Position numbers and translations under genes: made by a program. The notes below the pieces were generated by a model, which saw only the letters and a list, made by a program, of their open reading frames with translations, searched no databases and was not told where the DNA came from. This document shows, in pieces, positions 12,580-38,583 of a stretch of DNA of 38,768 nt. How positions within the stretch are numbered: position 1 is the stretch's first letter; each line of letters starts with the position of its first letter. This stretch comes from Nanobdellota archaeon (lineage in GTDB: Archaea > Nanobdellota > Nanobdellia > Woesearchaeales > GCA-2686295), in contig JAHJQL010000067.1 in the NCBI GenBank assembly GCA_018819065.1, positions 1 through 38,768 on the forward strand, read 5' to 3'.

Positions 12580-12938
12580 GTAGTAGGACGGTGATTGACT
12601 TTCGGTTTATAACTGAGGAAAACAAAAACTCCGTGTTTTTGAGCCTCAGTTTGAATAACTGAGGAAAGTCCGCCCACTAATTATGTAGTCACTCTCGGAA
12701 GAGAGATCCTGAAAAGGATGGCAACGGCTCAGAAACGAGACCACCTATGAACAAAAGAATGATGTGGCGAATCAATAGGCGACTGTTGAAAGCTAACCTG
12801 CTGACGGTGTTTTTAGGAATGGATGAAACGGCGAGTCCTGACTTGTGCAAGCCAAAATGGCGCTAAGTAGAATGTCAAGATGGACTGTCTGAAACATTAC
12901 AGAGTCCAACAAAAGGCGGCTTACAACCGTTCTACAAA
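12580..12938 (+). ncRNA. rnpB: RNase P RNA
   Basis: P1 helix GTAGGACGGT (12583-12592) / ACCGTTCTAC (12926-12935); CR-I GAGGAAAGTCCGCCC at 12661; internal ACGGCTCAGAAACGA; P4 partner GGCGGCTTACA at 12915-12925. Confidence 0.9.
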
Positions 12939-26151: not shown

Positions 26152-26243
26152 ATTAAAAGAGAGTATTTTTTGTTGTTTTAAAAAATTATGCTCAAAACAC
26201 CAATATCAAAACATTTAATTATGAGGTGTTAATTTAAAACAAA

Positions 26244-27998
26244 ATGGAAGAAGTTTGGAACCTAAAAGATGTTTTGAAAGGAAAAACAGTTGAAGAACTA
26301 CTTGAAGAAGCCAAGAAAAAAGTTGAAGCATTCAAATCTTTGAGAAAAAATCTAAAACCACAGATGAGTGCCGTTGATTTAAAGAGTATCTTGCACCTTA
26401 AAGAAGAACTCGGTGTTCTTTTGACAAGGATAGAATCTTATCACTACCTAAAATTCTATGAGAAAATAAATAATTCAAAAGTGTTGGCTAAACTCTCTTT
26501 TTTAAACCAGTTATTCACAGAGTACAATAACGACTTGTTATTCTTCTCATTGTGGTTTATAGACCTTGAAGAGAAACAAGCAGATAAGTTTATTCAATCT
26601 CCACAATTATCAGATTACAAATATTACTTGTCGTTCTTAAGAAGACTAAAACCTTATACGAAGTCAGAGGAGATAGAGCGAGTGATTTCTCTAAAATCCA
26701 TAACTGGAAAAGCAGCTTTTTCATCGCTTTTTGACATCATAACTGGAGAATTCAAGTTTGACTTTAACAATAAAAAAGAGTTGAGTCAGGAAGAAGTGGT
26801 TGTAAATTACGAGTCAGACAATGCATCGCTTCGAGAACTAGCATACAAAACAGTGTTGACAAAATATGATGAGAACGGAGTGGTGCTAACAGAGATATTC
26901 AAAAATGTTGTTTTGGATTGGTATAATGAAGGAATAAACATAAGAAGATATAAACATCCAATCAGCATTAGAAACTTGTCAAACGATGTAGACGACGAAG
27001 TTGTTGAAACATTACTAAGAGTCATAAAGAAGAATATTTCATTGTTTTCCGAATATTTCAAAATAAAATATGAATTGAACAAGAAAAGCGGTCAAAGATA
27101 TAAATTTTCAAGGTTTCATCTCTACGCACCATATAAATCAGGAAAAAAGAAGGTGTATAACTATGAGAAAAGTAAACAATTAGTGTTAGAGGCTTACAAG
27201 GAGTTTGATGAGCGGTTCTATAAAGCTGCAAAGGAGATATTTGACCAAAAACACGTCCACTCACACCCACAAAAGAATAAGAAAAGCGGAGCCTTCTGCT
27301 TTAGCTTAGATAATAAGTCAACACCATACATACTTCTAAACCATTCAAACAGCTTAAGAGATTTATTTACTATGATGCACGAGTTTGGTCACGGAATACA
27401 CGGAGTGTTTTCAAGAAAACAAGTAAACCTATTGTACAATGCGTCGTTACCGATGGCAGAAACTGCATCTATATTTGGCGAGATGATACTGACATCTAAG
27501 ATTTTAAAAAAGTCAAAAAATAAAGAAGAGAAGAAGTCTGTCCTGGTATATCTTATTGACAGAAACTACGCAACCATCATAAGACAAGCATATTTTGTCT
27601 ACTTTGAAAAGTTCGCTCATGAGAACATAATTAAAGGCATCACAAAAGAAGAACTTGACGAAAAATATTTTTCATTGCTAAAAGAACAGTTTGGAGAAAT
27701 GGAAGTCTCCACACTTTTCAAACATGAATGGAACTACATTCCACACATACACACCAGCCCGTTTTACTGTTATGCTTATGCCTGGGGAAACTTGATGGTG
27801 TTATCATTATATTCGATGTATCAAAAACAAGGGGCTGAGTTCATAGACAAATACGTTGACATATTATCAGCAGGAGGCGGAAAAGCACCCATAAACATTC
27901 TAAAAGAAGCAGGGATAGATCCAACATCAGAATTATTCTGGCAGGAAGGATTTGATATGATAAAAGAAGAAATAGAAGAATTAAAGAGATTAATCTAA
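26244..27998 (+). CDS. pepF: M3 family oligoendopeptidase F
   Basis: TMMHEFGHGIHG zinc motif, ASIFGEMIL, SPFYCYAYAWGNLMVLSLY. Confidence 0.93.
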   Translation: MEEVWNLKDVLKGKTVEELLEEAKKKVEAFKSLRKNLKPQMSAVDLKSILHLKEELGVLLTRIESYHYLKFYEKINNSKVLAKLSFLNQLFTEYNNDLLFFSLWFIDLEEKQADKFIQSPQLSDYKYYLSFLRRLKPYTKSEEIERVISLKSITGKAAFSSLFDIITGEFKFDFNNKKELSQEEVVVNYESDNASLRELAYKTVLTKYDENGVVLTEIFKNVVLDWYNEGINIRRYKHPISIRNLSNDVDDEVVETLLRVIKKNISLFSEYFKIKYELNKKSGQRYKFSRFHLYAPYKSGKKKVYNYEKSKQLVLEAYKEFDERFYKAAKEIFDQKHVHSHPQKNKKSGAFCFSLDNKSTPYILLNHSNSLRDLFTMMHEFGHGIHGVFSRKQVNLLYNASLPMAETASIFGEMILTSKILKKSKNKEEKKSVLVYLIDRNYATIIRQAYFVYFEKFAHENIIKGITKEELDEKYFSLLKEQFGEMEVSTLFKHEWNYIPHIHTSPFYCYAYAWGNLMVLSLYSMYQKQGAEFIDKYVDILSAGGGKAPINILKEAGIDPTSELFWQEGFDMIKEEIEELKRLI

Positions 27999-28054
27999 AT
28001 TTTTTTTTTAAAAAGGAAAAAAGTTTTATAAAGAATGCTCGCTCTCAACATTTA

Positions 28055-28681
28055 ATGGACTTTCAAGCATTAATAATTGTTATGTTTAACCTTTTCTTAA
28101 TCATAGACCCGGTGGCCTGTATACCTTTGCTTCCGGAGATGATGAAGAATAATACAAAACAAGAGCGCAAACAAATGATTCAAAGAGCAATCATTATAGC
28201 TTTTGTTGTACTAATATTTTTTACAGTTGTAGGAAGAATCTTGCTAAACTACTTCGGCGTTGGAATGGGTGCTGTTAGAATTGCAGGCGGCATATTACTT
28301 TTTGGCATAGGCTTTGAAATGTTATACGGACGATTGACAGGCACAGAGTCAAGCAAGTCAGAGCACAAAGAAGCAATAGAGAAAAAAGATGTGAGCATAA
28401 CACCACTAGCAATACCATTATTAGCAGGTCCAGGTGCAATAGCAACTGTTATGATGTTCTCAAGCATATATCAGGGATCACAAGGAATATTTATGATAAT
28501 AACTGCGCTCACAATTATTATGCTCATAAGCTTTTTAATGTTTAAGGCGGCCGAGACACTGGGAGCTAGACTTGGAGGGCTTGGAATAAAAGTCATCGCA
28601 AGAGTTATGGGCTTGCTTTTAGTATTTAGTTCTACACAAATATTTATCGAAGGATTAAAAATAGCAGGAATAATTAATTAG
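28055..28681 (+). CDS. MarC family membrane protein
   Basis: Six-TM pattern, DPVACIPLLPEM, ITPLAIPLLAGPGAIATVM. Confidence 0.9.
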   Translation: MDFQALIIVMFNLFLIIDPVACIPLLPEMMKNNTKQERKQMIQRAIIIAFVVLIFFTVVGRILLNYFGVGMGAVRIAGGILLFGIGFEMLYGRLTGTESSKSEHKEAIEKKDVSITPLAIPLLAGPGAIATVMMFSSIYQGSQGIFMIITALTIIMLISFLMFKAAETLGARLGGLGIKVIARVMGLLLVFSSTQIFIEGLKIAGIIN

Positions 28682-28706
28682 ATTTTAAAACTTATTTCAA
28701 ATTTTT

Positions 28707-28760
28707 TAATTCCGCCAAAATTAGAAAGATTTATATATCTTTATTACTTTTACGGAATTA
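28707..28760. promoter_or_regulatory. Nested dyads around a TATA box: TAATTCCG(28707)...CGGAATTA(28753) and AAAGAT-TTATAT-ATCTTT (28725-28742)
   Basis: 8-bp perfect outer IR with its right arm ending on the A of ATG 28760, flanking a 6-bp inner IR containing the TATA. Confidence 0.55.
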
Positions 28761-29623
28761 TGGAGTTTACAAGAGGAGAAATCTCAGTTTTAGAACAAAT
28801 AGCAAAGGGCAATAAGTCCTTGAAAGAAATAGCTTTAGCTTTAAAAAAAAGTGAACCTCAAGTATATGTTTATGTCAAAAATCTTGCAAATAAATCCTTA
28901 ATTGAACTAATAAATGGAAATATTGAACCGAACAGAATAGCTTACTTATCTTTGCTTCTTCAATTATTAAGCAAAATACCTAATCTCATACCTGTGTTAG
29001 AAGGTCCGGGAATACCAATATTTACTGCGATGCTAAAGCCATCGACAATAGAAGAAATATCTAGCGAAACAGGATACAGAAAAACAGCAATATACAAAAG
29101 ACTTCAAGAAGCAAGAAAAAGAAGTCTTGTTAGAAAAAAAATAACTACTTTTGAAATAAATGATAAAATGTGGGCAGGATTAAAAGAAACATTAGATGAG
29201 ATTAGAAAATCTGAATTAAAAACAGACAAAAGAATACCTGCAAGCGCAATAATTTACTACAAAAAGAACGATGAAATAGTTTTCTCAAGCAAAGAAGATC
29301 TTGATGCAGTAAAGACAGCATTCTCTGCATATCAAGATTATGGAATAGGTCTTCTTACCATAACTCACTTCTATTATTTACCTAAAAAAAATCTAACAAA
29401 AGAAAATATATTAACGCATTCACTTTACATCGTGGAAAAAGATGTGGACACAAGATACCTAATATTTATTGCACTATTCTATGCAAAATATAAAAAAGAA
29501 TTTAAAATAAATCATCCAATACTCGCAAATATCAATACTATACTTGAGGGCGGAGAAGTCAAAGGATATCCAAAATATCAGGAAATAAAAGACAGAGCAG
29601 AAGTCTATAATATAGAGGTGTAA
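28760..29623 (+). CDS. Multi-winged-helix transcriptional regulator/antitoxin-like protein
   Basis: Two HTH-like segments (GNKSLKEIALALKKSEPQVYVYVKNL; KPSTIEEISSETGYRKTAIYKRLQEARKRSLV); 2 nt upstream of an NTase gene. Confidence 0.65.
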   Translation: MEFTRGEISVLEQIAKGNKSLKEIALALKKSEPQVYVYVKNLANKSLIELINGNIEPNRIAYLSLLLQLLSKIPNLIPVLEGPGIPIFTAMLKPSTIEEISSETGYRKTAIYKRLQEARKRSLVRKKITTFEINDKMWAGLKETLDEIRKSELKTDKRIPASAIIYYKKNDEIVFSSKEDLDAVKTAFSAYQDYGIGLLTITHFYYLPKKNLTKENILTHSLYIVEKDVDTRYLIFIALFYAKYKKEFKINHPILANINTILEGGEVKGYPKYQEIKDRAEVYNIEV

Positions 29624-29625
29624 AA

Positions 29626-30285
29626 ATGATAACTGATTTTAAACAAATAGCAGATCTATTCAAAGAGATTGATAAAGTAACATATCATAAAATTAAAATC
29701 TACACTATAGGTGGGGCTGTCCTTCTTGAGCAAGGTCTAAAAATAGCAACTAAAGATATTGATGTAGTTGTAGAGACAAAAAATGAGTTCATTGACTTAC
29801 AGCATTCATTACAAAAAATAGGATTCAATCAGCAAATACCTGGAAAAGAATATTCACGAATGAATCTCAGCCAAATATTTCAAAGAGGAGAATTCAGAAT
29901 AGACTTATTTGAAAAAGAAGTCTGCGGAAGATTCTCACTATCAAAAGGAATGATAGATCGTGCAAGAAAAGTAATAAGTTTAGATCACATCGAAGTATAT
30001 CTTTGCTCAAATGAAGACATATTCTTATTCAAAACAATGACTGATAGAGAAGGAGATTTAACAGACTGCGAAAGCATAGTTGTAGCTGCAGTTGAATGGA
30101 ACATAATAATTGATGAACTTAAAAGCCAAATAAATATGAGTAAACAAGATGTATGGATAACATGGGTTGGAGAAAGACTAGACATCTTAGAAGACAGAGG
30201 AATGATAATTCCAATAATGAATGACTTAAACGTAATAAGAAATAAATTCTTTGATGAATTTGAAAAAAAGCATTCAAAAAATTAA
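29626..30285 (+). CDS. Nucleotidyltransferase-fold protein (AbiEii/DUF6036-like)
   Basis: GGAVLLEQGLKIATKDIDVVVETK with later FRIDLFEKEV; the hG[G/S]...DxD...D NTase pattern. Confidence 0.65.
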   Translation: MITDFKQIADLFKEIDKVTYHKIKIYTIGGAVLLEQGLKIATKDIDVVVETKNEFIDLQHSLQKIGFNQQIPGKEYSRMNLSQIFQRGEFRIDLFEKEVCGRFSLSKGMIDRARKVISLDHIEVYLCSNEDIFLFKTMTDREGDLTDCESIVVAAVEWNIIIDELKSQINMSKQDVWITWVGERLDILEDRGMIIPIMNDLNVIRNKFFDEFEKKHSKN

Positions 30286-30311
30286 CTTATTGATTCATAT
30301 TTTATTATCTA

Positions 30312-30349
30312 ATTGGTAAAATTATTAACTTTAGTTAATATCAACCAAT
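30312..30349. promoter_or_regulatory. Two-layer dyad: ATTGGT...ACCAAT around palindrome ATTAACT-TT-AGTTAAT (30324-30339)
   Basis: 7-bp perfect inner arms and 6-bp perfect outer arms just upstream of ATG 30359. Confidence 0.5.
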
Positions 30350-30358
30350 ATCAGGGCA

Positions 30359-33118
30359 ATGAAAATGATAACCAATGAGATAATTAAATCATTTATAATC
30401 TGTAAATATAAAGCATATAATATGCTGAATTCCGTTCAAGGAATCAAAAAAGATTATGAATTAATGCAAACTGAAATTGCAAACCAATTATTCTCTAAAT
30501 TTGCCGAAAATGTCAAAATAAGGTTCGGGGATGAAAATCAAATAGTGGATTTAAAATTAGTACATAATGAAAAAATTTCTAAAATTATATTAGAGTATCA
30601 TATTAATTTTAATAATTATGACCTTTTAGTGGATGCTATTGAAGTAAATTGTGGGAGACTTATTCCTTATTTGTTCTTGATGAAAGAAAAAATCTCTAAG
30701 TACTATAAATTACTATTAACGGTTAAATGCTTGCTCTTTACAAAAATGAATAATGTTGAAATTGATTCAGGAAGAATATACTATGGTAAAGATATGAAAA
30801 CTTTGAAATTTAAGATTCAAAAGTTAATTCCTGAATGTTTGAGAATAATCTCAGATTTGGAAAATTTGATTTCATTCAAATTAGAACCAGTGTTATGTCA
30901 AAATAACCACTGTAAAATATGTGAATATGAGGAATTATGTCATAAAAAACTTGTAGAAAGAGATGATTTGAGTTTACTTAGTTCTATTGATGAAAAAGAT
31001 TTGAAAAGATATGAGAAAAAGGGAATATTCACAATAAAGCAATTATCTTATACGTTCAAACTAAGAAAACGAAACGAAAGAGTAAATACAAGAAATCATC
31101 CGTATTATGATTCACTAAAAGCTCTTGCATTAAGAGAGAGAAAAGTTTATGTGTTTGATAAAATAGAAATCCCGAACAGTGAAACAAAAATATTTCTTGA
31201 TTGCGAAGGCGATACTGAAAACAGTTTTATATATTTGATAGGAATATTAATAGAAAAGAAAGAAAGCATTGAAAAATATTCTTTTTGGGCTAATACAAAA
31301 GAAGAAGAATCTAATATATTTGATGAATTATATAGAATAATTAATAGCCATCGCGAAGCTAAAATATTTTATTATGGAAAATATGATTGGCGTGTTCTTA
31401 AAAAAATAATTTCACAAACTAATAATGTATCTATCAAGAAAATTATATCTGAGAATTCAGTAGATATATTAGCAAAAATAAGAAGAAATATCTATTTTCC
31501 AACGTACTCAAATAGTTTGAAAGAAATTGCACGATTTATGGGTTTTTCGTGGACTGATATTCAGGCGTCCGGGTTACAAAGTGTTGTATGGAGGTATGAA
31601 TGGGAAAAATTAGGAGATATTAGTATTAAAAAGAAATTAATTACATATAATTCTGAAGATTGTGAAGCATTACAACTCTTAGTCAGATTTCTTGTAGAGG
31701 TATTTAATAATGAAATACAAAATAATGACAAAGTTGCATTTATAGAGCACATGGATCCTAAAGAGAATCAAACATTTAAGAATATGACTTATGCAACAGA
31801 AGACGTAAAAATTATAACTCAAGGAGCCTATTTTCAATATCAACGAAATAAGATTTATTGGAGAACAAATGAGAATATTAAAAAAATAAAACGGAAAAAT
31901 GAAAAAGTAAATAAGATCAAAATTAAAGTAAACAAGACTATTTTAATAAAAACAAATAAATGCTCGTTATGTAAATCAAAAAATATTTCGAAGATTGAAA
32001 ATGACATTTTTAAAATAACAGTTTTGGATCTACGAATTTCTCAATATGGAATTAAAAAATGGATAATTCAATATGATGCACACAGGTATATATGTAATAA
32101 TTGTGAGAATAGATTTTTACCAGCGGAACTTAAGAAGATTAAATATTATTCAAGAAAAGATCCTAAATTACGCGGTTATATCAAACATAAACAAGAAGGA
32201 ATAGGACACACATTGTTGGTTTGGATAATACATCAATTCTTAGTAAATTATACAACATTCAGGAGTATTGAAAAATCATTAAAATATTATTTTAAAATTC
32301 CACTAGATCATCGTCAGATTTGGGAAGTTAAGCGTACCGCTGCAACATATTATAATAAAACATTTGAAGAGATTCTTCAAAATTTAATAAAAGGAAAATA
32401 TATCCATATAGATGAAACAAAAGTAAAATTAAAAACAACAAGTGGATACATATGGGTATTTTCCAATATGGATGAAGTTATTTATTTGTATAAACCAAAC
32501 AGAGAAGCTGCTTTTCTAAAAGATCTTCTTAAAGATTTTAAGGGTGTGCTAATCTCTGATTTTTATCCAGGATATGATTCATTGGATTGTCCAAAACAAA
32601 AATGTCTTGTACATCTAATTCGTGATTTAAATGATACATTATTAAAAAATCCATTCAACGAAGAATTAAAATCAATTGTAGTAAATTTTGGTGCATTGTT
32701 AAGAAATATTATCTTTACATCAGATAAGTATGGCTTAAAGAGAAGACACTTCAATAAACATAAAAAAGATGTTTTAAATTTTTTTGAAGATTTAAAAAAT
32801 TCAAACATTGTAACGGAAGAAGCAGATAAACTTAGAAAAAAAATTATATCTTATGATAATGAATTGTTTACTTTTCTTGATTATGATAATGTGCCGTGGA
32901 ATAACAATAATGCCGAGTATGCTATAAAGCAATTTGCAGATTATAGACAGACTGTCAAGGGGTCAATAACTGAGAAAGGTTTGGTAGCTTATCTGACTCT
33001 ATTGAGTATTTACCAGACATGTAATTATAAAGGAATAAACTTCCTTAATTTTTTATTATCAAAACAAAAATATTTCAATAAGAAAGATAAAATAAAATCA
33101 ATGAATAATACTTGTTAA
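30359..33118 (+). CDS. RecB/Cas4-like nuclease - DEDDy RNase H-like exonuclease - zinc ribbon - IS66-like DDE transposase fusion
   Basis: Cys set C180-x4-C185-x2-C188-x5-C194; IFLDCEGD (D281xE283) to YNSED (Y430..D434) of DEDDy type; CSLC...CNNC zinc ribbon; IHIDETKVK, ISDFYPGYDSLDCPKQKCLVHLIRDLND, WNNNNAEYAIKQFADYRQ of IS66-like DDE. Confidence 0.85.
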   Translation: MKMITNEIIKSFIICKYKAYNMLNSVQGIKKDYELMQTEIANQLFSKFAENVKIRFGDENQIVDLKLVHNEKISKIILEYHINFNNYDLLVDAIEVNCGRLIPYLFLMKEKISKYYKLLLTVKCLLFTKMNNVEIDSGRIYYGKDMKTLKFKIQKLIPECLRIISDLENLISFKLEPVLCQNNHCKICEYEELCHKKLVERDDLSLLSSIDEKDLKRYEKKGIFTIKQLSYTFKLRKRNERVNTRNHPYYDSLKALALRERKVYVFDKIEIPNSETKIFLDCEGDTENSFIYLIGILIEKKESIEKYSFWANTKEEESNIFDELYRIINSHREAKIFYYGKYDWRVLKKIISQTNNVSIKKIISENSVDILAKIRRNIYFPTYSNSLKEIARFMGFSWTDIQASGLQSVVWRYEWEKLGDISIKKKLITYNSEDCEALQLLVRFLVEVFNNEIQNNDKVAFIEHMDPKENQTFKNMTYATEDVKIITQGAYFQYQRNKIYWRTNENIKKIKRKNEKVNKIKIKVNKTILIKTNKCSLCKSKNISKIENDIFKITVLDLRISQYGIKKWIIQYDAHRYICNNCENRFLPAELKKIKYYSRKDPKLRGYIKHKQEGIGHTLLVWIIHQFLVNYTTFRSIEKSLKYYFKIPLDHRQIWEVKRTAATYYNKTFEEILQNLIKGKYIHIDETKVKLKTTSGYIWVFSNMDEVIYLYKPNREAAFLKDLLKDFKGVLISDFYPGYDSLDCPKQKCLVHLIRDLNDTLLKNPFNEELKSIVVNFGALLRNIIFTSDKYGLKRRHFNKHKKDVLNFFEDLKNSNIVTEEADKLRKKIISYDNELFTFLDYDNVPWNNNNAEYAIKQFADYRQTVKGSITEKGLVAYLTLLSIYQTCNYKGINFLNFLLSKQKYFNKKDKIKSMNNTC

Positions 33119-33325
33119 TGTAAATACTCCTTCTCCAACACTCTTGAATACATTATGTTTGTCTCTTAAGATTACGGCCATAACTGTTCTTTCTGGAGTC
33201 TTGCCTTTGGTCTCTTTTATCTTTAAGATCTCCTTTGTTATGTCCATGTAATGCATTGGTTTCTTGTTTTCCTGGAGCACTTTTTGTGCCAGTGTATAAA
33301 ACGATTTATTCGATTTCTTAGCCAT
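33098..33325 (-). CDS. HARE-HTH-like winged helix protein
   Basis: SFYTLAQKVLQENKKPMHYMDITKEILKIKETKGKTPERTVMAVILRD...FKSVGEGVFTL; AGGAGG Shine-Dalgarno upstream. Confidence 0.75.
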   Translation of the reverse strand: MAKKSNKSFYTLAQKVLQENKKPMHYMDITKEILKIKETKGKTPERTVMAVILRDKHNVFKSVGEGVFTLTSIIH

Positions 33326-33352
33326 TATAGTTTCCTCCTAAGTTATTCATAA

Positions 33353-33413
33353 TTATGCTAACTTACCGTCGAGGATGCTCAAATACCTATTTAAACACCC
33401 TCGTAGAGCATAA
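33353..33413 (-). promoter_or_regulatory. Promoter of the HARE-HTH gene enclosed by nested inverted repeats
   Basis: TTATGCT/AGCATAA (33353, 33407), CGAGG/CCTCG (33370, 33399), ATGCTC/GAGCAT (33375, 33406), TATA-like TTTAAATA between them on minus. Confidence 0.5.
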
Positions 33414-33426
33414 TATCCTTTGTACT

Positions 33427-33446
33427 CGCTATTTTCTTGAATAGCG
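33427..33446 (-). terminator. Hairpin CGCTATT-TTCTTG-AATAGCG downstream of the 33455 gene
   Basis: 7-bp perfect stem, 6-nt loop, 9 nt after the minus-strand stop. Confidence 0.4.
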
Positions 33447-33454
33447 ACAGATGC

Positions 33455-33754
33455 TCATCTGAAGTACTTTTTCAGATAGATAATATACATTTGGCGTAGA
33501 GAATAAAGAGAAGTAACAAACTTAAGATCATCAGTAGTTTCCTTTCTAAAAATATTGATAAAAATCTTTTTACGAAAATCTTTATCTTTTGAAAAGTCTT
33601 TAACGAGATAAACACAATAATGGCCATTCTTTTTTTGACACTCGAAGATATAAGGGCAATCAACACAGCTCAAAATAGGATAATTAAAATTTGAATGCTT
33701 GCCCGTTCTTAATCTTTTGAAAGCGTTGGCCTGTGACTTTCTTAGACTTGACAC
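33455..33754 (-). CDS. Hypothetical small Cys-motif protein (GTG start)
   Basis: CVDCPYIFECQKKNGHYC (C-x2-C-x5-C-x7-C); AGGTGG Shine-Dalgarno. Confidence 0.5.
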   Translation of the reverse strand: MSSLRKSQANAFKRLRTGKHSNFNYPILSCVDCPYIFECQKKNGHYCVYLVKDFSKDKDFRKKIFINIFRKETTDDLKFVTSLYSLRQMYIIYLKKYFR

Positions 33755-33764
33755 GCTTCCACCT

Positions 33765-34025
33765 TTAATCCTGTCCTAATAGACTATCAATATACACGAA
33801 AAAATCTCCAAAATCTTCAATTATTATTACATCTTCATTTAATTTAATGAAATCTTTTACAGCTTGAAGAATTTTTTTATTCTGTTCATAATCTTCGCTC
33901 AATTGAGTAATTTTAGCAAGTATCCCCAATTTAACAGACACGCTATCCTTATCATCATCAAGTGTTTTAGGAATATAACTTTCTATCTTCTCTCTTATTC
34001 TCTCATGCAATTCCATAATGATCAT
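33765..34025 (-). CDS. Hypothetical small helical protein
   Basis: 86 aa intact ORF, 10 nt upstream of the next co-directional gene; own promoter with CACAATTA boxes. Confidence 0.5.
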   Translation of the reverse strand: MIIMELHERIREKIESYIPKTLDDDKDSVSVKLGILAKITQLSEDYEQNKKILQAVKDFIKLNEDVIIIEDFGDFFVYIDSLLGQD

Positions 34026-34030
34026 CTCTC

Positions 34031-34125
34031 TAATTGTGATAATTGTGTAAGATTACTGCGCGGACAACTCTTTTTTCTTTATGCCTTAGTTTTAAACCAC
34101 ATACCCGCATTTTTGCACAATTATC
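34031..34125 (-). promoter_or_regulatory. Promoter with three TAATTGTG/CACAATTA boxes
   Basis: TAATTGTG at 34031-34038 and 34040-34047 in tandem; 10-bp perfect inverted copy CACAATTATC at 34116-34125; TATA-like tttaaa between. Confidence 0.55.
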
Positions 34126-34130
34126 CTATT

Positions 34131-34562
34131 TTAGACACTGCACGTCTCCGTACTTTTTGTCACGAGGAGTACTTTTGTTCCATCCTGGAGAAAACCGCCT
34201 TTTACATGTAAATAGCGATTTGGAGCTTTTCTTGATACTCCTACATCTGCCATGAGCATTGCTGGAATTGGCACGTAGAAACTATGTGTTGTCTTTGAGA
34301 TGCCACCGCTTACTGTGTACTTTCTTGGCAGTTTGTAATATTTATACGGCCTATAGAAATAGTCTAGTGGTCTCTTAAAATAGAACGCTAAGCCTACTTT
34401 TCCTTTGTCATCTACATAACGCATTGGGAACACAAACTGTCCTGAAAAGAAATTTACTGCGTGAATTGTCGGAACATAAAAGGTCTCTTGATGACCTATT
34501 CTTCTGCATTTGACAATCTCTATTTCAAACTCTTTTGTAAAGTCTTTGATGAACTTCGTCAT
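34131..34562 (-). CDS. Hypothetical protein, start MTKFIKDFTKEF
   Basis: ATG at 34562 has AGGAGGC Shine-Dalgarno at 34571-34577; the ORF-track start at 34631 is probably leader. Confidence 0.5.
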   Translation of the reverse strand: MTKFIKDFTKEFEIEIVKCRRIGHQETFYVPTIHAVNFFSGQFVFPMRYVDDKGKVGLAFYFKRPLDYFYRPYKYYKLPRKYTVSGGISKTTHSFYVPIPAMLMADVGVSRKAPNRYLHVKGGFLQDGTKVLLVTKSTETCSV

Positions 34563-34570
34563 ACTAAATC

Positions 34571-34700
34571 GCCTCCTGGTCTTGGTTAATTGCACCGTAG
34601 CTTTTCGAGGCACTGTGGCCTTTTTTAGCATCGATTAACCGCCACCTCGGGCGTCTTGTGAAGATGCACTTTTGCGCTACATCGCGTCAGATGTTTCGAC
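34571..34700 (-). promoter_or_regulatory. Structured 5' leader of the 34131-34562 gene
   Basis: Helix TGC+GGTTAAT (34584-34593) / GCA+ATTAACC (34628-34640); further hairpin potential GATGtaGCGC-AAAA-GTGCaTC on minus. Confidence 0.4.
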
Positions 34701-34773
34701 TAAATCTAAACACCTTATCTACATTATACGTTTCTTTCTTAATATCATTTTCTCACTTACTTCAGAAGTTATA

Positions 34774-34795
34774 CCAGAATGAATATTCATACTGG
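34774..34795. repeat. 22-bp near-perfect palindrome CCAGAATGAATATTCATACTGG
   Basis: Self-complementary except the A/A pair flanking ATGAATATTCAT; partial direct repeat CATACTGGC near 34915. Confidence 0.5.
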
Positions 34796-34949
34796 CTTCA
34801 TAAGAATCATCGACAAGCTTTATAAACAAAATAGACATTGTTTCTATACGATGTATAAAATGGGAGAACAATTAGTGAATATCCGTAGTCGAGAAATAAA
34901 GAAAAAATGGCCAAATACATACTGGCCTTATAGTATTCAGACGTACCTA

Positions 34950-37107: not shown

Positions 37108-38583
37108 TCACTTAACAAGCCTTCTTAGTTCATCAACAATCAAAATCATTGCTTTTGTATCAAGCGAACAGTATTCTTCAAGATTTGCTCTGACTTTCTC
37201 AATTTCTTCTCTTGAAGGAAGAACTCCATTTATGTCTGGATAGGTTATTCTTAAGTACTCAAGGCTTGCATCCATCCCTTGTTTTATGTCAACAGCTTCA
37301 TAACCTCTTCCAATTAGTGCTGGTAAAACTTTTTTTATCGAAGCGCTTCCGTGCTGTGAAGAATTGTAATAGTCAAAGTTTCTGAAAGGAACTAGCAAGT
37401 CAACAACTCTTTCTAGTGTTGAATCAGCCCAATTTCTATACTCTGAAAACGCGCCTCCTAATTCGTTTATGATGCCTTTTTCAAAAACTTGATTATAAAC
37501 TATTATTTTACCCTTTTTTCCCAGTGCATCTTTTAAAGATGATAAGAATGCAGGTCTTGGATCGTCTGGCTTGTCATAGAGAAACGAAAAGTGCTTTGTT
37601 GAGCTATCAATTGTGTGTAGTGAGAATTGGAATGGTATCTTCTGATAAGGTCTTGTACCATTAAAAATAGGCATTACAGGGCTGATTGTTTCAAAGTCAA
37701 GGTATTGAAGTGGTTCTTTTAAAAGTTTTAAGAACTCCTTCATTTTTTTCTTGTTCACATAAGGTTTTCCTGTGATTTCAACCTCTCTTTGTATCTCTTG
37801 TTTGTCACTTAGCTTGAAATCATCTGGAATATTGGCTATTGCAAGTATATCTTCTTCAAATAGCTGAGTGCTTTTCTTTCCACCTCTGTAAAGGTCAAAG
37901 ACGTTGTTTTGCGGCATAAAAGACCAGCAATCATCAGTTAATGGACAATTGTATGGTTTGCCGCACCTCTTTCCAATAGTTGCATATGGTTTTTTTGTTG
38001 AAGCGAGCACATTTAAGAGTTCATCAACCTTTTTCTCAATTCCTATTGACGCTTCGTTAACTCTTGAAGTGATGTTCTTAGTCGCGAAGAACTCTTCTGG
38101 TTTAATAACTCCATTTTTCACAAATTCCTTGTTAACATACATTAAGAAGTAATCCTTAATATTTAGTCCTGCTTTTTTGCAGCAATACTTTTGAAAGGCA
38201 ACATCTTCAATGTTTTCTTTCTTTACTTCGGTGGAGCTCTTGACCTCTATTAAATCCCATTCATCAATTCCGACAGGTTTTAAAATGTCGGCTCGGGTAT
38301 ATATTTCATCTGCTAATATTCCAGCTTCAAAGAGTGTTTTTCGTTCTCTGGCAAGTTTTCTTGTAATATTAACATTCTCCATGAATTCTTTTGTTGGGAT
38401 GTTGACACCCTCTGAATACATTTTCTTTGCTAATTCACCAACCAATTTTCCCTGTTCAAAACGATATTTCGTCTCTGTGCTAATACTTGTTATCTTGTTT
38501 GGTTCGTGGATTTTTGTCCAAAGATACTTATCACATTGCAACCCAACCATGTACAGGGACTTAGTCAATGTTTTTGATGTCAT
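37108..38583 (-). CDS. DUF2779 domain protein (RecB-like nuclease plus RNase H-like domain)
   Basis: LTKSLYMVGLQCDKYLW, KKAGLNIKDYFLMYVNKEFV, YNCPLTDDCW, LQYLDFETISPVMPIFNGTRPYQKIPFQFSLH. Confidence 0.85.
   Translation of the reverse strand: MTSKTLTKSLYMVGLQCDKYLWTKIHEPNKITSISTETKYRFEQGKLVGELAKKMYSEGVNIPTKEFMENVNITRKLARERKTLFEAGILADEIYTRADILKPVGIDEWDLIEVKSSTEVKKENIEDVAFQKYCCKKAGLNIKDYFLMYVNKEFVKNGVIKPEEFFATKNITSRVNEASIGIEKKVDELLNVLASTKKPYATIGKRCGKPYNCPLTDDCWSFMPQNNVFDLYRGGKKSTQLFEEDILAIANIPDDFKLSDKQEIQREVEITGKPYVNKKKMKEFLKLLKEPLQYLDFETISPVMPIFNGTRPYQKIPFQFSLHTIDSSTKHFSFLYDKPDDPRPAFLSSLKDALGKKGKIIVYNQVFEKGIINELGGAFSEYRNWADSTLERVVDLLVPFRNFDYYNSSQHGSASIKKVLPALIGRGYEAVDIKQGMDASLEYLRITYPDINGVLPSREEIEKVRANLEEYCSLDTKAMILIVDELRRLVK

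Follow-up and report, generated by a model that had tools for sequence, protein, structure and literature searches.

A widespread fusion of a Cas4/TM0106-like protein with an IS66-type DDE transposase, usually carried in single copy by genomic islands and plasmids

Background

A gene in the window (the entire 38,768-nucleotide stretch of a Nanobdellota archaeon analysed here) raises the question whether a protein that joins nuclease-like domains and an IS66-type transposase in one chain still moves as a transposon or has been put to another use. The initial annotation considered both an autonomous one-protein transposon and a domesticated genome-editing or defence enzyme. The contig that forms the window comes from a 1.5-Mb genome; genes for PCNA and an RNase J-like protein lie on it, together with that of archaeal RNase P RNA (12583-12935, + strand). 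The sizes and kinship of the genome's relatives suggest a DPANN-type archaeon. No description of the family was found in the papers searched, and it is apparently undescribed.

Results and discussion

Domain composition

The translated window contains one intact, stop-free frame of 919 codons at 30359-33118 (+), with the following parts:

30359..33118, +: fusion protein, 919 aa, single intact ORF
30359..30958, +: Cas4/TM0106-like domain, residues 1-200; Fe-S cysteines present, nuclease predicted dead
31190..31690, +: RNase_H_2 DEDDy exonuclease domain, residues 278-444 (D281, E283, D343, Y430, D434)
31961..32104, +: zinc ribbon, residues 535-582, opening the IS66-like half (C535, C538, C579, C582)
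32204..32980, +: IS66-type DDE domain with helical insertion, residues 616-874 (D685, D734, E853)

Pfam matches are Cas_Cas4 at residues 53-195 (27.0 bits against a cut-off of 22.7) and, both above their curated cut-offs, RNase_H_2 at 278-444 (96.7 bits, E 2e-27) and DDE_Tnp_IS66 at 616-874 (104.5 bits, E 9e-30). With NCBIfam models the fusion scores 171.6 bits for the TM0106 family (TIGR03491, cut-off 97.45) and 163 bits for transpos_IS66, under the equivalog cut-off of 180. The motif CQNNHCKICEYEELCH occupies residues 180-195, followed by DCE (281-283), YNSED (430-434), the zinc ribbon C535/C538/C579/C582 and the IS66-type motifs IHIDET (682-687), SDFYPGYDS (733-741) and NNNAEYAIKQF (848-858). 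An AlphaFold model with the family alignment as input reaches a mean pLDDT of 86.7 (pTM 0.57), with low confidence only in linkers at about 468-519 and 600-611, read as disordered. The best Foldseek matches in the PDB are the ISCth4 transposase (E 1e-7) and Cas4 of Cas4-Cas1-Cas2 complexes (E 5e-7); a PDB sequence search returned no useful match.

Translation, Pfam, NCBIfam and AlphaFold thus bear out the four modules in one intact 919-codon frame that the initial annotation had described, and all motifs quoted there are present. Its proposal of a true one-polypeptide fusion held as well: dozens of full-length homologues are each encoded in one open frame, which rules out a frameshift or assembly join, and the domains are recovered.

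Conservation of catalytic residues

Residue conservation was read from a 73-row alignment of fusions. In the DEDDy set, D281, E283, Y430 and D434 are essentially invariant and the position of D343 is E in most members; the set sits on an RNase H-like fold, and exonuclease activity is predicted. The DDE triad (D685, D734, E853) is essentially invariant and kept in nearly all members, as are zinc-ribbon C535, C579 and C582, with C or H at position 538. The Cas4-type Fe-S cysteines C15, C185, C188 and C194 are 89-97% conserved among fusions. Stand-alone TM0106 proteins carry GxPD...[D/E]xK...Q; aligned fusions have hydrophobic or other residues at that site, [D/E]xK occurs in none of them, and the window protein retains D92 with L105/L107 in place of [D/E]xK. 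The Cas4-like domain of the family is probably a dead nuclease and, as judged from its motifs, is predicted to bind DNA, not to cut it, since PD-(D/E)xK is lost. Among the catalytic sites that had been proposed for checking, DEDDy and DDE are therefore intact; PD-(D/E)xK is missing from the whole family, window protein included, and an active Cas4-type nuclease is not borne out.

Close fusion pairs have dN of about 0.04-0.13 against dS of 0.15-0.72, with dN/dS of about 0.15-0.3 across the whole protein. Every domain is constrained in these pairs, the Cas4 part being generally the fastest-evolving, which points to purifying selection in all domains.

Element ends and copy number

The flanks of 50 fusion loci contain no terminal inverted repeats beyond cross-locus controls (score 9.9 for own flanks vs 9.7 for the control). 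Stand-alone archaeal IS66 genes, the positive control, showed common-form repeats, some perfect over as much as 20 bp, in most loci whose flanks were long enough. Short direct repeats near the fusion gene, which bear on 8-bp target duplications, show no excess. TnpB lies beside three of four stand-alone IS66 genes fetched from plasmids; neither TnpA nor TnpB is a recurrent neighbour of the fusions. The fusion is present once in about four-fifths of 57 host genomes and extra copies are divergent, never identical, a count to be read with the caveat that draft assemblies could collapse identical copies. The window gene is likewise single in its genome, and a local, recent insertion sequence was rejected on its single copy and missing end repeats. 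The fusion does not look like an IS66 transposon.

It is decidedly unlikely that the fusion moves autonomously as an IS66-type insertion sequence whose unconventional ends lie just outside or inside the ORF. The intact DDE triad, patchy distribution and horizontal spread would fit such an element, as would close members in different contexts whose similarity stops at the ORF edges (L041/L100, L051/L052, L086/L124) and two loci with direct repeats immediately flanking the gene (L075, L081). However, an inverted or direct end signal, evident at stand-alone IS66 loci, is absent across fusion loci save a few, the TnpB neighbour is lacking, the copies are single and divergent, and the gene is carried within islands. 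This comparison does not support the autonomous one-protein transposon of the initial annotation: copies across genomes are mostly single and divergent, and they are cargo of islands or plasmids whose boundaries are set in other ways.

Taxonomic distribution and phylogeny

An alignment-based scan yielded 80 loci, nearly all covering both halves of the fusion. Bacterial hosts belong to Acidobacteria, Proteobacteria, Nitrospirae, Cyanobacteria, Verrucomicrobia, Planctomycetes, Bacteroidetes, Nitrospinae and KSB1, archaeal hosts are Methanoperedens and a Nanoarchaeote (46% identical), and full-length fusions are present on plasmids of Acaryochloris (38% identity) and Calothrix (31% identity). The earlier suspicion that such long proteins exist elsewhere was correct, as they occur in many phyla of bacteria and in a few archaea. 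Their distribution is patchy, with hits in 3 of 54 Nostoc genomes, 14 of 234 in a class of Nitrospirae and 10 of 350 in a class of Acidobacteria. Viral contigs and phages contain no full-length relative, so a viral or phage origin was rejected.

Trees of the two halves each place all fusions in a single clade, apart from stand-alone relatives of archaea and bacteria (support at least 100/99), which points to one old fusion event followed by horizontal spread. The window protein groups with the Nanoarchaeote fusion inside an otherwise mainly bacterial clade, so a transfer from bacteria is likely. Elsewhere in the order and phylum of the window, TM0106 and IS66 sit in distinct genes, a decayed N-terminal fusion remnant (G235) being the exception. 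The five genus mates of the window genome lack a TM0106-type half, and just one of them (G001) has IS66-type matches, too weak for a fusion.

Two further candidates were rejected as fusions of the same kind and are other IS66 variants. L039 (G347:C70, 76-2781, +) is an IS66 transposase with an N-terminal extension of about 400 residues, and L043 (G192:C58, 463-2892, +) combines an IS66 transposase and DruA (Druantia) in one 809-aa frame. A Bradyrhizobium plasmid (L042, 4983-5933, +) encodes a short protein that aligns only to fusion residues 4-295 and lies near a tyrosine recombinase and IS256, a probable remnant.

Genomic context in the window

The fusion gene has a GC content of 25.8% (GC3 19.9%), the lowest GC among the window genes checked. 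Its surroundings are:

28760..30285, +: upstream pair of a TrmB-like HTH protein and a DUF6036 nucleotidyltransferase (Pfam)
33098..33325, -: convergent HARE-HTH gene, its 3' end overlapping the fusion 3' end by 21 bp
26152..34949, no strand assigned: ThiI-PCNA segment containing the fusion, absent or replaced in four genus mates

ThiI lies next to PCNA in three genus mates and 2.5 kb from it in one, against 8.8 kb in the window, so the segment is either inserted or a site that varies; the window itself shows no island boundary. The TrmB-like/DUF6036 genes are possible toxin-antitoxin-like neighbours, with a conjectured functional link to the fusion. A DUF2779 protein is encoded 4 kb from the fusion (37108-38583, -); this family is reported to pair DUF83 (Cas4-like) with an RNase H-like domain (PMC3985635).

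Genomic islands and plasmids

Direct repeats of at least 18 bp flank the fusion in 17 of 73 loci, compared with 4 that have such repeats elsewhere; few of the later-fetched loci have att-type repeats. Repeats of L054, L055, L087 and L103 reflect duplicated genes or palindromes and were left out of the island count, and L083 was set aside as a clean island, its complete tRNA lying apparently on the wrong side. The convincing repeats duplicate the ends of tRNA or protein genes:

L072: tRNA-Gly, 30 bp exact repeat, enclosing only fusion, AbiEi and AbiEii
L106 (relative L066): tRNA-Val, 38 bp repeat, with tyrosine integrase and Abi_2 inside
L076: tRNA-Asn, 38 bp repeat
L056, L090, L117: repeat of the comM 3' end, enclosing only fusion, Gp49/HigB-like and HTH (HigA-like) genes
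L167: repeat of the 3' end of a class II tRNA-synthetase gene, accompanied by a Uma2 protein

The comM sites are uninterrupted in relatives. Across 97 loci, 16 have a tyrosine recombinase within some kilobases of the fusion. When the Nostoc flanks were used to look for an empty site, the parAB side proved to be conserved on other plasmids, but no joined empty site turned up. Comparable comM repeats, of at least 50 bp, bound an unrelated two-component/efflux island (L297, 4372-11961), comM being an integration site in Nitrospirae.

The fusion often adjoins toxin-antitoxin or Abi genes and defence families are varied singletons among 130 neighbours, with no partner that stays constant, counts that have no matched control and concern genes (toxin-antitoxin) common in any island. 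PADLOC detected no defence system at fusion loci, only Cas4-like similarity. CRISPR-like arrays as integration records were rejected, none near members being convincing. Overall, the fusion behaves as usually single-copy cargo of islands and plasmids, not as an ordinary jumping gene.

The island structure raises the alternative that the fusion is itself the integrase of minimal elements (fusion plus toxin-antitoxin pair) at the 3' ends of tRNA or conserved genes, a DDE analogue of the casposase. We consider this unlikely. In its favour, the repeat-bounded units of L056, L072, L090, L117 and L167 contain no tyrosine recombinase detectable with a purpose-built HMM (tyrosine type only), and in many cases no other gene lies between the repeat and the fusion. 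In Nitrospirae hosts, moreover, comM is less similar (75-80% at DNA level) than the N half of the fusion (86-90%), as for independent insertions at the same site. Yet the L297 island has neither fusion nor tyrosine integrase, so the comM site takes other cargo, something else serves it, and a necessary role of the fusion there is weakened. The tRNA-Val islands carry their own tyrosine integrase, the comM copies of L090 are diverged gene ends, which is a signature of attP/attB recombination and not of DDE target duplication, and repeats of this kind are absent at most fusion loci.

Exchange of alleles and halves

Two Nostoc genomes (L097, L182) have flanks 97-99% identical with different fusions inside, 46% and 35% identical to the Calothrix protein respectively, and each contig also contains a remnant of another fusion. 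Homologous islands of Acidobacteria (L066, L106) likewise carry different fusions, in opposite orientation. Within the protein, L065 and L090 are mostly 80-96% identical at residues 51-400 and 26-54% at 501-750, whereas L065 and L117 hold about 90% identity over residues 501-750. L069/L094 and L082/L092 follow the same pattern. The two half-trees conflict, in line with recombination of halves, and the exchange lies near residues 400-500.

These data also bear on the quite unlikely alternative that the fusion is a domesticated transposase which serves the host in DNA repair or recombination and plays no part against foreign DNA. Purifying selection in all domains agrees with a housekeeping enzyme of this sort, as does the status of stand-alone TM0106 proteins as ordinary genes in many genomes. 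Against it stand the very patchy occurrence within genera and classes, the location on plasmids and islands, the replacement of alleles in one slot and the decayed remnants, all of which fit an accessory role better.

Proposed function

We tentatively favour, at somewhat less than even chances, an old, domesticated fusion of TM0106-type and IS66-type proteins, devoid of transposon ends, dead at its Cas4-type site and carried by islands and plasmids, that likely acts on foreign or rival DNA. It may have arisen long ago through a single event that joined a TM0106-type (COG2251) protein to an IS66-type DDE transposase, then been domesticated, with loss of the transposon ends and the Cas4-type active site, and spread as single-gene cargo of plasmids and of islands bounded by tRNA or gene ends. 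The protein probably targets foreign or rival DNA. Recognition of an end or structure on that DNA would fall to the Fe-S Cas4-like domain and zinc ribbon, the DEDDy domain would trim 3' ends and the DDE domain would cut or join strands; incoming DNA might thereby be destroyed or disabled, or a competing element displaced. Of the domesticated genome-editing or defence enzyme proposed at the outset, domestication is probable, and editing or defence is conjecture.

It is very unlikely that the chain is a one-protein capture machine in which a dead Cas4-like end sensor, a DEDDy trimmer and DDE strand transfer would process DNA ends and join them at tRNA or gene 3' ends, mobilising minimal islands of fusion and toxin-antitoxin genes. 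Such a machine would be a DDE-based counterpart of the casposon or CRISPR adaptation module.

What the favoured, domesticated fusion represents is a large inter-domain family hidden under two generic annotations, TM0106 nuclease and IS66 transposase. It provides a case of a transposase that has kept the residues of its chemistry, lost its ends, gained exonuclease and Cas4-like parts and travels as island cargo. In the compact three-gene units, use of the DDE domain against foreign DNA or for island integration is directly testable.

Comparison with known systems

Among formal families, TM0106/COG2251 and IS66 are the closest. The N-terminal 445 residues match TM0106/COG2251 (TIGR03491; DUF83 + PF13482) and share its Cas4-type cysteines and DEDDy residues. 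In stand-alone members GxPD...[D/E]xK...Q is preserved, and they end past the RNase H domain or extend into AAA domains (PMC3985635), whereas the fusions have lost [D/E]xK and run on into the IS66 DDE domain. Architectures of DUF83, PF13482 and AAA (PMC3985635) and Cas4-helicase fusions (PMC5704561) have been described, not the IS66 fusion.

With Cas4 and Cas4-Cas1-Cas2 the protein shares the Foldseek match to Cas4 and four Fe-S cysteines, and its order of putative end-recognition, 3' trimming and strand-joining domains recalls the CRISPR adaptation module; unlike these systems it has no Cas1, no repeat array nearby and no Cas4 active site. Some fusion carriers integrate at tRNA genes as casposons do, but Cas1 and terminal inverted repeats are absent. 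The IS66-DruA protein (L043), from the same archaeal order, also adds a domain, here of the Druantia defence family, to an IS66 transposase; unlike in the fusion, its DruA domain is C-terminal and the TM0106 half is absent.

IS66 transposases (TnpC) share the DDE_Tnp_IS66 domain, zinc ribbon, D685/D734/E853 and NNNxAE motif; the fusion differs by the lack of TnpA/TnpB and terminal inverted repeats, by its own monophyletic clade and by its N-terminal nuclease-like half. As it has neither the nuclease motif of TM0106 nor the transposon ends of IS66, the fusion counts as a variant of each family and belongs fully to neither.
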